A DNA stretch of 35,671 nucleotides from Aureimonas sp. Leaf427 (lineage in GTDB: Bacteria > Pseudomonadota > Alphaproteobacteria > Rhizobiales > Rhizobiaceae). Shown piece after piece: positions 11,157 to 33,246 of this stretch. The stretch covers positions 1 through 35,671 of the forward strand of contig NZ_LMQW01000018.1 in assembly GCF_001425485.1 (NCBI RefSeq), read 5' to 3'. Position 1 is the stretch's first letter. Each line of letters opens with the position of its first letter. Made by a program: the position numbers and the translations under genes. Under the pieces are notes generated by a model. That model had not been told where the DNA came from. It searched no databases and saw only the letters and a program-made list of their open reading frames with translations.

Positions 11157-11173
11157 TCGTTGACAATATGCAG
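11157..11173 (+). promoter_or_regulatory. shared GTTGACAAT box, copy 1 (gntR1-tct operon)
   Basis: TCGTTGACAATATGCAG lies 22 bases before the first GntR start. It matches copies at 18302, 23215 and, inverted, 29983. The TTGACA inside it can serve as a -35 hexamer; with normal spacing transcription would begin almost at the ATG. It may be the operator for the neighbouring GntR protein. Confidence 0.55.
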
Positions 11174-11195
11174 AGTGTCATCGTAAGCAGTCCTC

Positions 11196-11927
11196 ATGGT
11201 TAGCGTTCGAGCCAAACTCGCCCTCCTCCAGCAGCACTCTCTCGCGACCCGGCTCGAGGCTGAGATCGAGCGGCTGATCCTTGAGGGTGAGCTCGTCGTC
11301 GGCGATCGCGTGAACGAGATGCAGCTGGCCGAGCGCTTCGGTGTCAGCCGGAGCCCCGTGCGCGAGGCGGTTCGCACGCTCGAATCCTCCGGCCTCATCG
11401 AGGCCGTGCCAAACCGGGGCATCTTCGTGCGCCGAATCGATACGGCGACCGCATTGAAAGTCTACGGCGTGCGGGCCGCTCTCTTCGGCTATGCCGCGCA
11501 GCTACTAGCGACCGAGGGCAGCGACGGCGACCTCGCCCGGCTGGCCGAGATGCATCGGACGATGGGCTCGGCCGCGCAGACGCATCGCTTCGCCGATTAT
11601 TTTCCGCTGAACTTCGCCTTCCACGACTTCATCGTGGAGGCCGGCGGCAACGATGTCCTGGCCGCGCAGTATCGCAGCCTCGTCAAGCAGCTTCGCCTCT
11701 TTCGCGGACAGAACCTCATGACGGGCGACACGATGGAGATCTCGCATCGCGAGCATCAAACCATCGTCGACGCCGTTCTAGCCCGCGATCCGGCCCGAGC
11801 CTATCGCGCCGCCTTCGACCATGTCGAGCTGGGTCGCCAGCGCCTCATGGTCCGCGCGGTCGAGGAGCACGGGTTCGGCATCGAACCGCGAGCCGAACCA
11901 GATGAGGGGCCGGCCAGAGTCGCGTAA
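11196..11927 (+). CDS. GntR-family regulator, FCD (FadR/VanR) subgroup
   Basis: This 243-residue transcription factor has an N-terminal winged helix (about residues 15-75) with VNEMQLAERFGVSRSPVREA and LIEAVPNRGIFV. A C-terminal all-helical FCD ligand domain follows. The FCD metal-site histidines are visible in LNFAFHDF, SHREHQTIVDAV and AAFDHVE. FCD regulators usually sense carboxylates and repress a neighbouring uptake or catabolic operon. This one stands first in line with tctCBA, 61 bases before tctC, and the shared box lies directly upstream, so autorepression is likely. No Shine-Dalgarno is visible before ATG 11196, and the -35-like hexamer ends only 30 bases upstream, which hints at a leaderless or nearly leaderless transcript. 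It is a paralogue of the regulator at 22417. Confidence 0.9.
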   Translation: MVSVRAKLALLQQHSLATRLEAEIERLILEGELVVGDRVNEMQLAERFGVSRSPVREAVRTLESSGLIEAVPNRGIFVRRIDTATALKVYGVRAALFGYAAQLLATEGSDGDLARLAEMHRTMGSAAQTHRFADYFPLNFAFHDFIVEAGGNDVLAAQYRSLVKQLRLFRGQNLMTGDTMEISHREHQTIVDAVLARDPARAYRAAFDHVELGRQRLMVRAVEEHGFGIEPRAEPDEGPARVA

Positions 11928-11988
11928 TCATCGCAAACGAAGGCTCGAACGCTCGACAGAAGCGGAGCCTCATCGGGGAGGAAACCAG

Positions 11989-31148: not shown

Positions 31149-31161
31149 GAGGACATCCGGC

Positions 31162-32232
31162 ATGGCCCTGAAGATCGCAGTCATTCCCGGCGACGGCATC
31201 GGAACCGAGGTGATGCCCGAAGGCATCCGAGTCCTCGAGGCCGCTTCGAAGCGCTTCGGGATGGATCTCGCCTTCACCGAATTCGACTTCGCCTCCTGCG
31301 ACTATTATGCCCGCTACGGGCAGATGATGCCGGGTGACTGGAAGGCGCGGATCGAGGGGCACGACGCCATCTTCTTCGGTGCCGTCGGCTGGCCCGCGAC
31401 TGTCCCGGACCACGTGTCCCTCTGGGGCTCGCTTCTTCAGTTCCGGCGCGAGTTCGACCAATACGTGAACCTACGCCCCGTGCGCCTCATGCCGGGCGTG
31501 CCCTCCCCACTTGTCGGCCGCAAGCCCGGCGACATCGACTTTTTCGTCGTGCGCGAGAACACGGAAGGGGAGTATTCCTCGATCGGCGGCACGATGTTTC
31601 CCGGCACGGATCGCGAGATCGTCATGCAGGAAACGGTGATGAGCCGGATCGGCGTCGACCGCATCCTGGCCTACGCCTTCGATCTCGCCCAAAACCGGGA
31701 CAAGAAGCACCTGACTTCGGCGACGAAGTCGAACGGCATTTCCATTACCATGCCCTACTGGGACGGGCGGGTGGAGGAGATGGCGGAGCGCTACCCGGAG
31801 GTGCGCTGGGACAAGTACCACATCGACATTCTCTGCGCGCATTTCGTGCTGAACCCCGACCGGTTCGACGTCGTCGTCGCCTCCAATCTCTTCGGCGATA
31901 TACTGTCCGACCTTGGCCCCGCTTGCACCGGCACGATCGGCATCGCGCCCTCCGGCAACATCAATCCCGAGAGGCGCTTTCCCTCGCTCTTCGAGCCCGT
32001 CCACGGCTCGGCGCCCGACATCGCTGGCAGAGGTATCGCCAATCCGGTCGGGCAGATCTGGGCCGGCGCGATGATGCTCGACCATCTCGGCTACGCCGAT
32101 GCGGGTGCAGCCATCGTTGCCGCCATCGAGACGGCGCTCGCCGATCCAAAGACGCGAACCGGCGATCTCGGAGGCCAGGCGAACACGCTCGGCGCCGGCA
32201 AGGCCGTCGCTGACATCCTCCTGTCCCGCTGA
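31162..32232 (+). CDS. tartrate/D-malate dehydrogenase-like beta-decarboxylating dehydrogenase, copy 3
   Basis: This 356-residue paralogue follows the preceding gene after 13 bases. It keeps the same catalytic residues: IAVIPGDGIGTEVMPEG, QYVNLRPVRLMPG, RENTEGEYSSIGG with the Tyr, TKSNGISITMPYWD with the Lys, and ASNLFGDILSDLGPACTG with the Asp. The two share motif spacing over their whole length and probably arose by duplication. Differences in the substrate loop (SLLQFRREFDQYVNL here against ICQPFDQYANV) may mean different substrates or stereoisomers. AGAGGA precedes ATG 31162. Members of this type accept tartrate and D-malate; the true substrate here is open. Confidence 0.92.
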   Translation: MALKIAVIPGDGIGTEVMPEGIRVLEAASKRFGMDLAFTEFDFASCDYYARYGQMMPGDWKARIEGHDAIFFGAVGWPATVPDHVSLWGSLLQFRREFDQYVNLRPVRLMPGVPSPLVGRKPGDIDFFVVRENTEGEYSSIGGTMFPGTDREIVMQETVMSRIGVDRILAYAFDLAQNRDKKHLTSATKSNGISITMPYWDGRVEEMAERYPEVRWDKYHIDILCAHFVLNPDRFDVVVASNLFGDILSDLGPACTGTIGIAPSGNINPERRFPSLFEPVHGSAPDIAGRGIANPVGQIWAGAMMLDHLGYADAGAAIVAAIETALADPKTRTGDLGGQANTLGAGKAVADILLSR

Positions 32233-32244
32233 GCGAGGCTTCCC

Positions 32245-33246
32245 ATGGGCTCCCCTCTTCCCATCATCGCGCTGACCCCCGGCGACTGCACCGGCATCGG
32301 CCCCGAACAGGTCGCGCGGATCCTGTCCGACGGTCGCCTGGCCGATGTCGCCCGGCTCGTCGTCGTGGGCGATGCCCGCGTCCTCGATCTCGGCGCGGCA
32401 CAGGCCGGCGTCTCGCTCGCCTGTCGCCGCTACGACAGCCCGGCGGTCGTGAATTGGGACGATCCGCTCGTGCCGCTGGTCGATCTCGCCAACATCGACC
32501 CCGCGCTATTTCCCCCCGGCATCGGCAGCGCGCAGTCCGGTCGCCTCACCGGCGAGACGCTCGCGCGCTGCATCGAATTTTCCAAAGCCGGCGAGGTCGA
32601 CGCGGTCAGCTTCGCACCGCTCAACAAGCGCGCCATGTTCGACGGCGGCTGGAAATTTCCCGACGAGCACAAGATGTTCGCCCATCTTCTCGGGCACAGC
32701 GGCTATTTCAGCGAGATGAACGTCCTCGACGGCCAATGGATGTCGCGGGTCACCTCGCACGTCTCGCTCCGCCAAGCGCTGGATCTCGTCGACCGCCCGG
32801 CCATCGAGGCCGCGATCGTCCTGGCGATCCGCATGATGGAGACGGCCGGCATCGCTGCCCCGCGCCTCGCGGTGGCCGCGCTGAACCCGCACAATGGCGA
32901 GGGCGGCCTGTTCGGCATGGAGGAGATCGAGATCATTCGGCCCGCCGTCGAGGCGATGGCTGCCAGGGGCTTTTCCTGCGCCGGCCCCTTCCCCTCCGAC
33001 ACCGTCTTTCTCAAAGCCTTCGCGGGCGAGTTCGACGGCGTGCTGTCGATGTATCACGACCAGGGGCAGATCGCGACGAAGATGCGCGGCTTCAATCGTG
33101 GCGTCACGGTCACGGCCGGTCTCGACACCGTCTTCACGACCCCGGCCCACGGCACGGCCTTCGATATCGTGGGACAAGGCATCGCGGACACTGGCGCCAT
33201 CGAGAACGCCATTCGCCTCGGCGCAAAACTGGCGGGCCGGACCTGA
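32245..33246 (+). CDS. PdxA-family dehydrogenase (PdxA2-like)
   Basis: This 333-residue protein belongs to the 4-hydroxythreonine-4-phosphate dehydrogenase family. It has TPGDCTGIGPE at the start and the three metal-binding His residues in TSHVSLRQ, ALNPHNGEGGLFG and MYHDQGQIATK, followed by TTPAHGTAFDI. PdxA itself serves vitamin B6 synthesis, but paralogues (PdxA2) act in catabolism of phosphorylated four-carbon acids, and TphB oxidises a terephthalate dihydrodiol. Here it is last in an operon with two tartrate-dehydrogenase-like genes, so a catabolic role is likely. No DUF1537-type kinase, the usual PdxA2 partner, is in the window, so phosphorylated substrates are not supported. ATG 32245 has GAGCGAGG upstream. 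Confidence 0.9.
   Translation: MGSPLPIIALTPGDCTGIGPEQVARILSDGRLADVARLVVVGDARVLDLGAAQAGVSLACRRYDSPAVVNWDDPLVPLVDLANIDPALFPPGIGSAQSGRLTGETLARCIEFSKAGEVDAVSFAPLNKRAMFDGGWKFPDEHKMFAHLLGHSGYFSEMNVLDGQWMSRVTSHVSLRQALDLVDRPAIEAAIVLAIRMMETAGIAAPRLAVAALNPHNGEGGLFGMEEIEIIRPAVEAMAARGFSCAGPFPSDTVFLKAFAGEFDGVLSMYHDQGQIATKMRGFNRGVTVTAGLDTVFTTPAHGTAFDIVGQGIADTGAIENAIRLGAKLAGRT

Follow-up and report, generated by a model that had tools for sequence, protein, structure and literature searches.

Contig C18 of Aureimonas sp. Leaf427, one of the 51 contigs of a 5.43-Mb genome, carries genes for carboxylate uptake and catabolism lined up between positions 11196 and 33246, which raises the question of whether they serve one pathway and which acids that pathway would degrade. 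The window analyzed here is this entire contig (35,671 bases). Genes were called from open reading frames (ORFs) and from Pfam and NCBIfam matches, the Pfam scan taking in 40 of the 127 ORFs listed for the window. According to Pfam, the island carries a TctCBA transporter, an Fbp-type ABC importer, three MmgE/PrpD proteins (MmgE1, MmgE2, and MmgE3), three Iso_dh-family dehydrogenases (IDH, TDH1, and TDH2), a PdxA-like protein, an SDR-family dehydrogenase, a rhodanese, an alpha/beta hydrolase (ABH), two GntR regulators, and an AbrB-family protein. An earlier reading made from the DNA letters alone (the sequence-only reading) had joined such genes into a single route of import, dehydration or isomerization, and oxidative decarboxylation, and every gene it named was found where it had been placed. 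Its interpretation is partly supported by our analysis: the cluster is found again in numerous bacteria from soil, plants, and water, and the island consists of several movable modules and not of one fixed pathway. We tentatively propose that it is a catabolic cluster of modular build, acting on 2-substituted C4-dicarboxylates (substituted succinates or malates).

The idea of a joint pathway had been tied to conserved co-occurrence of the genes elsewhere. This was borne out, as the neighborhood is found again in both alpha- and betaproteobacteria and the phyletic pattern is the same for three core orthologues. We surveyed the Leaf427 genome and 99 relatives, 90 of these 100 genomes being at least 90% complete and at most 5% contaminated. 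Orthologues of MmgE2 (23282-24697, plus strand), the core of the conserved cluster, were found in nine genomes, Leaf427 included, at 77% identity or more, the next homologue reaching 41%. The same nine genomes hold the orthologues of IDH (at least 74%; next homologue, 54%) and of ABH (at least 73%; next, 49%), the ABH match of G042 spanning one TGA. Orthologues of the PdxA-like protein (at least 73%; next, 48%) occur in six of the nine and in no other of the 100 genomes. Up to 40 kb around MmgE2 was examined in the relatives. Most of the set is held together in G003, G005, G047, G048, and G042, with G048 cut by contig ends and TDH1 not found in that range in G003 and G048. G098, G029, and G059 harbor TctCBA, MmgE1, the SDR, the AbrB-family protein, ABH, the rhodanese, MmgE2, MmgE3, IDH, and TDH1 in a rearranged order.

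In a second survey, an MmgE2 alignment was run against 84,980 named species genomes, yielding 464 pattern matches, 361 of which encode a relative of the query. All counts given below refer to the best 80 of these 361 loci, with flanks reaching no further than 10 kb (60 of the 80 loci are longer than 20 kb); since they were picked by likeness to MmgE2, the linkage frequencies hold for the MmgE2 clade only. The alphaproteobacterial loci include Phyllobacterium, Mesorhizobium, Rhizobium, Aureimonas, Paracoccus, Microvirga, Bosea, and Dongia, and the betaproteobacterial ones Ramlibacter, Achromobacter, and Polynucleobacter; the closest named match of the window MmgE2 among them is Aureimonas glaciei (89% identity). 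At 60% identity or more in tblastn, the genes found near MmgE2 were IDH (60/80), ABH (52), the ABC permease and ATPase (48 each), the binding protein (47), TDH1 (36), MmgE3 (34), and TDH2 (23). The PdxA-like gene was near MmgE2 in 56 of the 80 loci at 45% or more and in 40 at 60%, and the rhodanese in 32 and only 3, respectively. Counts from chosen ORFs differ from these tblastn counts: 49 (at least 55%) versus 52 (at least 60%) for ABH and 43 (at least 40%) versus 56 (at least 45%) for PdxA. As a control, ten ORFs of contig C50 of the same genome were searched likewise and reached 45% in 0/80 loci. A chance assembly was thus rejected, IDH, ABH, and the permease lying near MmgE2 in 48 to 60 of the 80 loci versus none for the control. 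Scattering of the genes in relatives, set beforehand by the sequence-only reading as the outcome that would speak against it, is not what the linkage data show.

The genes follow each other in the order GntR1, TctC, TctB, TctA, MmgE1, SDR, AbrB-family protein, ABC ATPase, binding protein, permease, GntR2, MmgE2, MmgE3, IDH, rhodanese, ABH, TDH1, TDH2, and PdxA-like, the rhodanese and ABH lying on the minus strand and interrupting an otherwise plus-strand island. Four modules can be distinguished, which are rearranged, swapped, or missing between loci. The first comprises the tripartite tricarboxylate transporter, with its binding protein TctC (ORF limits 11821-12957, the true start lying inside; Pfam TctC, 1e-29, residues 109 to 372), TctB (13055-13528; 6.5e-21), and TctA (13538-15046; 4e-130), followed by MmgE1 (15043-16470), the SDR-family dehydrogenase (16484-17218, start approximate; adh_short_C2, 2e-48), and the AbrB-family membrane protein (17226-18287; AbrB, 2e-54; TIGR03082, 177 bits for a cut-off of 94.7). 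The second consists of an ABC importer of the Fbp/2-aminoethylphosphonate type, MmgE2, MmgE3 (24824-26173), and IDH (26197-27273). The importer is made up of an ATPase (18392-19456, start approximate; ABC_tran, 4e-35, and TOBE_2), a solute-binding protein (19496-20539; SBP_bac_8, 1e-22; 90 bits for NCBIfam phnS2, far under the cut-off of 393), and a permease (20550-22268, start approximate; BPD_transp_1 in two stretches). The rhodanese (27294-29021) and ABH (ORF limits 28880-29860, its end overlapping the rhodanese ORF) form the third module, and TDH1 (30075-31148), TDH2 (31162-32232), and the PdxA-like gene (32245-33246) form the fourth. The AbrB-family gene and the two GntR/FCD transcriptional regulators, GntR1 (11196-11927; Pfam FCD, 7e-25, and GntR, 2e-18) and GntR2 (22417-23157; Pfam), are additions to the list of the sequence-only reading.

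The importers alternate as well. MmgE2 is flanked either by the ABC permease (49 loci) or by a second, different TctA (26 loci) and never by both, while neither is found in 5 of the 80 loci, four of which are shorter than 20 kb. On a quick FastTree tree of MmgE2, in which 22 of the 79 inner branches are open, the number of state changes is 10 to 20 for each of IDH, TDH1, TDH2, PdxA, ABH, the rhodanese, and MmgE3, counts that are inflated by short flanks and contig ends. The neighborhood expected by the sequence-only reading is thus recurrent, but its modules are too often rearranged, swapped, or missing for one fixed route from import to decarboxylation. These changes, together with the lack in MmgE1 of a tyrosine present in MmgE2 and MmgE3 (see below), would also fit a catabolic hot spot housing several independent carboxylate pathways, in which TctCBA-MmgE1-SDR-AbrB would serve one acid and ABC-MmgE2-IDH another, TDH1 and TDH2 being ordinary D-malate/tartrate dehydrogenases. 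The confinement of the MmgE2, IDH, and ABH orthologues to the same 9 of 100 genomes and the repeated association with MmgE2 across two classes speak against such independence, and we regard this explanation as possible but rather doubtful.

Horizontal transfer is suggested on the same tree by the Achromobacter copies of MmgE2 (L060 and L061), which branch within a group made up mostly of alphaproteobacteria. The species label of L072, a metagenome bin with the title Bordetella parapertussis, is doubtful, as its MmgE2 falls among environmental Burkholderiales.

We then asked which reactions the encoded enzymes may catalyze. All three MmgE/PrpD proteins have both the N- and the C-terminal family domain over the Pfam cut-off (5e-57 and 2.5e-27 for MmgE1, 3e-58 for MmgE2, and 5e-79 for MmgE3). 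Homologues of this family are mostly uncharacterized, four activities being known according to a published study (PMC12290011). The best PDB match of all three is iminodisuccinate (IDS) epimerase, to which MmgE2 aligns over about 400 residues (2HP3/2HP0; E 3e-53) and MmgE3 with an E value of 4e-45. In that study, H85, D88, H99, H150, K198, and K266 are given as the catalytic residues of IDS epimerase, with Tyr145 as the second base (PMC12290011). Aligned with 2HP3, MmgE2 has all of them as H111, D114, H133, H184, K232, and K298, as well as Y179 for Tyr145. Alignment to MmgE2 showed that MmgE1 and MmgE3 also keep the carboxylate-binding and catalytic residues, which are nearly invariant in the orthologue rows. 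The second-base tyrosine of the epimerase-type members, IDS epimerase and methylsuccinate isomerase (Tyr145/Tyr148), is present in MmgE2 of 80/80 loci and in 38/38 MmgE3 rows. At this position, MmgE1 has no tyrosine but a histidine in 18 of 19 orthologue rows (the remaining row has a gap), and cis-aconitate decarboxylase has a methionine. Without being proof, the tyrosine speaks for MmgE2 and MmgE3 acting as epimerases or isomerases, and we predict them to be two-base enzymes; the dehydration envisaged by the sequence-only reading is disfavored for these two proteins.

Dehydration or decarboxylation would be at the center of a methylcitrate-like or aconitate route, in which the MmgE/PrpD proteins would act on tricarboxylates as PrpD or cis-aconitate decarboxylase do and IDH would oxidize an isocitrate analogue. 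Cis-aconitate decarboxylases do follow among the PDB matches of MmgE2 (E 4e-40), and one betaproteobacterial locus, L089, has TcuA and LeuC/LeuD-type genes. However, MmgE2 has a tyrosine where the decarboxylase has a methionine, no citrate synthase or aconitase match was found among the 40 scanned ORFs of the window, and annotation as PrpD/2-methylcitrate dehydratase had to be rejected, as the equivalog cut-offs were far missed (20 to 54 bits versus 458 to 950). We therefore consider this route quite unlikely.

The three Iso_dh-family proteins match Pfam with E values of 1.5e-83 (IDH) to 1e-86. TDH1 (541 bits) and TDH2 (559 bits) both exceed the TIGR02089 tartrate dehydrogenase equivalog cut-off of 470.4 and are the only ones to pass an NCBIfam equivalog cut-off among the seven catabolic enzymes checked (the three MmgE/PrpD proteins, the three Iso_dh proteins, and the PdxA-like protein). 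Compared to the tartrate/D-malate dehydrogenases described by this model, they differ in occurring as two copies linked to MmgE2. IDH falls under all 16 listed NCBIfam cut-offs for isocitrate, homoisocitrate, and isopropylmalate dehydrogenase equivalogs and subfamilies. Its motifs NPHPI and VRENNEGFQPDRN are invariant in 58/58 orthologue rows, and the latter has no tyrosine in any of the 58, an absence also seen in the alignment with TDH1 and TDH2. In Iso_dh enzymes, the tyrosine of the VREN-EG-Y motif is one that we take to be catalytic. Judged from these motifs, the chemistry of IDH may differ from its annotation.

The PdxA-like protein (Pfam PdxA, 1e-80) was under all seven listed NCBIfam cut-offs, the best scores being 255.6 versus 470, 241.4 versus 290.4, and 235.8 versus 583. 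It shares with PdxA and D-threonate-4-phosphate dehydrogenase the family match and three histidines aligned with those that presumably form the metal site of the references, but it differs from them in the substrate-binding motifs. The GHTE of five PDB references is replaced by DEH in 43/43 rows (followed by Lys in 28, Gln in 12, and Ala in 3), the Asn of the GVN motif by Thr in 42/42 readable rows, and the Arg of the RTS motif by Phe (37) or Tyr (5) in 42/42 rows. His136, Thr137, Lys274, Asn283, and Arg292, which we assume to be the substrate-binding residues of Escherichia coli PdxA, align with Glu, His, Lys, Thr, and Phe, so that only the lysine is kept. A function as a vitamin B6 enzyme was rejected on the basis of the missed cut-offs and the changed substrate-binding residues, and the altered motif suggests a non-phosphorylated substrate. 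The names annotated for the PdxA-like and IDH subfamilies are thus probably misleading. The term "decarboxylating", applied to the dehydrogenases by the sequence-only reading, can be relied on only at the level of the family: IDH is without the motif tyrosine, and the PdxA-like protein has a changed substrate motif.

ABH had been described as a dehalogenase-like hydrolase. This kinship was confirmed and can be narrowed down: its closest solved structures are fluoroacetate dehalogenases (E 9e-84 and 2e-82). In one of them, RPA1163, Asp110, Asp134, and His280 are catalytic and His155, Trp156, and Tyr219 form the halide pocket (PMC6100074). ABH matches all six residues and has the same nucleophile, base, acid, and halide-pocket residues as RPA1163, Alr0039, and other fluoroacetate dehalogenases. 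Among 51 orthologue rows, the catalytic and halide residues agree in 50/50 rows readable at all sites. ABH also matches Arg111 and Arg114, residues that presumably have a role in RPA1163, and the Asp110-Arg111-Arg114 motif agrees in 51/51 rows. ABH is thus a relative of the fluoroacetate dehalogenases with, as read from the alignments, the full set of catalytic and halide-pocket residues. Unlike the known enzymes, it belongs to a separate clade (at least 73% identity within and at most 49% to other homologues in the 100 genomes) that recurs in a polycarboxylate gene cluster, and its activity is predicted from sequence.

Is ABH part of the pathway? We probed the whole genomes of 12 of the 28 loci that have no ABH (at least 60%) in the MmgE2 flanks. 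Five carry an ABH orthologue (74 to 77%). Judged by eye from the coordinates, it lies in three of them seemingly on the MmgE2 contig, about 10 to 13 kb away, and in two on a different contig. In all five, ABH faces the PdxA-like gene divergently, within 0.3 kb in four and at 1.3 kb in one, which suggests that the product of ABH may feed the PdxA-like enzyme. Of the other seven genomes, six have only homologues of 42 to 46% and one has none at an E value of 1e-70 or below. ABH is therefore strongly, but not universally, linked to the cluster.

The rhodanese (Pfam, 1e-36), described earlier as having four modules, is indeed multimodular, but only three stretches pass in Pfam. A single cysteine (C236) is invariant in 35/35 orthologue rows, whereas two further cysteines recur in only 25 and 21 rows; most modules look degenerate because of this single invariant cysteine. 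ABH and the rhodanese adjoin on the strand opposite to the rest, the halide pocket of ABH is complete, and five probed Ramlibacter genomes are without an ABH orthologue. All this would suit a detoxifying role, in which ABH (and the rhodanese) would clear a toxic companion of the main acid, either a halogenated or a cyanide-type analogue, the remaining enzymes degrading the acid itself. Such a role is nevertheless unlikely. No Rfam match at the gathering score, and hence no fluoride riboswitch, was found in the window or in five related loci (L042, L046, L056, L066, and L089), the sole CrcB-family match of the genome sits on another contig (C23), and the divergent ABH-PdxA pairs suggest a metabolic link.

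Some betaproteobacterial loci show which other enzymes can accompany MmgE2. Clustering with L089 placed TauD, MR/MLE, LeuD-type, chromate-transporter, and TcuA genes near MmgE2 in L072, L089, L091, and L097, with a LeuC-type gene grouped in three of these loci and a PrpB-like lyase in three. In the typed stretch (L089:82-16898), TcuA scored 720 bits (cut-off, 369), the LeuC-type protein 483 (385), and the LeuD/DmdB-type protein 111.9 (108.95), with the PrpB-like lyase at 205 bits, under its cut-off of 354. The tricarballylate dehydrogenase TcuA, the LeuC/LeuD-type hydratase, and the PrpB-like lyase all belong to the metabolism of branched carboxylates, and we count them in favor of a cluster for 2-substituted C4-dicarboxylates.

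Further genes were seen at the edges of such loci. Short genes lie beside the cluster at L089:2233-3434 and at L047:17988-19087 (and its like); L089:2233-2799 belongs to the chromate-transporter family, and the short genes of L042 to L045, L047, L048, and L052 are alike by eye only. A RuBisCO-like gene related to OiaX (384 bits for a cut-off of 700) lies near the cluster at L057:15288-16583 and was grouped also in L058 and L112.

A known system close to the proposed one is the methylsuccinate/itaconate cluster (Msi, Mcd, Ict, Ich, and Ccl), which likewise has a His/Tyr two-base MmgE/PrpD enzyme in a branched-dicarboxylate setting (PMC12290011). The window differs from it in having free-acid dehydrogenases in place of CoA-type enzymes; no CoA transferase, acyl-CoA dehydrogenase, hydratase, or CoA-lyase is among the Pfam matches of the 40 scanned ORFs. 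Contig C50 of the Leaf427 genome (L040:12504-17942) encodes an MmgE/PrpD protein, an acyl-CoA dehydrogenase, a CoA-transferase-like frame (recognized by eye), a MaoC-like match (FAS1_DH_region), and an HpcH/HpaI lyase, which is the gene content of the methylsuccinate cluster of PMC12290011. Homologues (at least 45%) of two or more C50-cluster genes occur in the stretches around MmgE2 of G029, G059, G098, L105, L095, and L059, and a homologue of one such gene occurs in nine further loci. With IDS epimerase, MmgE2 shares all the listed catalytic residues, including Tyr145. A difference is that no C-N lyase match was found among the 40 window ORFs scanned, and a shared substrate cannot be assumed because the match is distant (E 3e-53).

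From the computed gene content, linkage, residues, and alternative importers, we infer the reactions, their order, and the substrate class as follows. The acid would be taken up by the Fbp-type ABC importer or by a TctCBA system. MmgE2 and MmgE3 would then epimerize or isomerize it at the carbon beside the carboxylate by a two-base His/Tyr mechanism, and in lineages having ABH, this enzyme would put a hydroxyl in place of a leaving group at the carbon alpha to a carboxylate. Finally, TDH1/TDH2, IDH, and the PdxA-like enzyme would oxidize and decarboxylate the resulting 2-hydroxy or 2,3-dihydroxy acids to 2-oxo acids; part of this oxidation may be replaced by hydration and C-C cleavage in the betaproteobacterial variants. 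The common theme of these steps is a C4-dicarboxylate with a substituent beside a carboxylate.

Several observations weigh against this proposal. The second-base tyrosine is not diagnostic, because B. subtilis "IRG1", aligned with MmgE2, carries it too, and the reaction of that protein is undetermined according to PMC12290011. The modules are separable, so that their co-location may reflect related but distinct pathways, and with at least three switches on the MmgE2 tree, the importer swap amounts to a few events and not to 75 independent ones. No Fbp-type importer, TDH2, or PdxA-like gene was found around MmgE2 in G098, G029, and G059, and in these three of the nine cluster genomes, the PdxA-like protein was not found at an E value of 1e-80 or below. 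ABH is absent from the MmgE2 flanks in 28 of the 80 loci, and the dehalogenase-type step is not universal, as its orthologue is missing in 7 of the 12 probed genomes. Moreover, ABH belongs to a broad family, 49 of the 100 genomes holding some homologue at an E value of 1e-60 or below, and a deposited "probable epoxide hydrolase" matches it at 3e-82, as closely as most fluoroacetate dehalogenases do. Decarboxylation by IDH is uncertain because of the missing motif tyrosine, and TDH1 (418 bits) and TDH2 (474 bits) are under the cut-off of 501 of the NF006048 tartrate dehydrogenase model. Lastly, the two surveys overlap in at least five genomes (L049, L051, L056, L070, and L098 are G048, G003, G047, G029, and G098).

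TonB-dependent receptor and FecBCD-type siderophore uptake genes lie upstream of the island (2887-9940). FecBCD/TonB-receptor genes near MmgE genes in G059 and L094, and partly on contig C50, had suggested a link, which was dropped because no more than a single named locus out of the 80 and a single relative showed it. At 45% or more, the upstream TonB receptor, FecB, FecCD, and a minus-strand SDR were found in 0/80 loci and FecE in one; since it lies 13 to 20 kb from MmgE2, outside the 10-kb flank, the siderophore operon is a weak control. No siderophore-operon gene was found in the 6.7 kb beyond GntR1 in G003 and G005, where the gene order from GntR1 to PdxA is preserved. A fragment with a transposase DDE domain (10239-10826, minus strand) lies just upstream of GntR1, close to the end of the gene order common with these two genomes.

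No description of this gene set was found in the literature searched, which mostly did not cover subscription journals. Carboxylate catabolic clusters are known as a kind, but that literature seems to contain no description of the combination found here or of three or more of its enzyme subfamilies. The cluster ties two MmgE/PrpD clades to a recurrent set of partners and thereby gives a route to their substrate. Furthermore, the occurrence of an ABH clade with an intact pocket in a conserved metabolic setting makes its natural function directly testable. A further, improbable reading is that the natural substrates are polycarboxylates halogenated at the alpha carbon, fluorinated ones included, for example halosuccinates, halomalates, or fluorocitrate. 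MmgE2 and MmgE3 would interconvert the stereoisomers, ABH would be a genuine dehalogenase of polycarboxylates with products of the malate, tartrate, or hydroxycitrate type, and the decarboxylation of these would fall to the PdxA-like enzyme, IDH, and TDH. Should it hold, a whole clade of fluoroacetate-dehalogenase homologues would acquire a metabolic role, and an unrecognized pool of halogenated acids in soil and water would be indicated.

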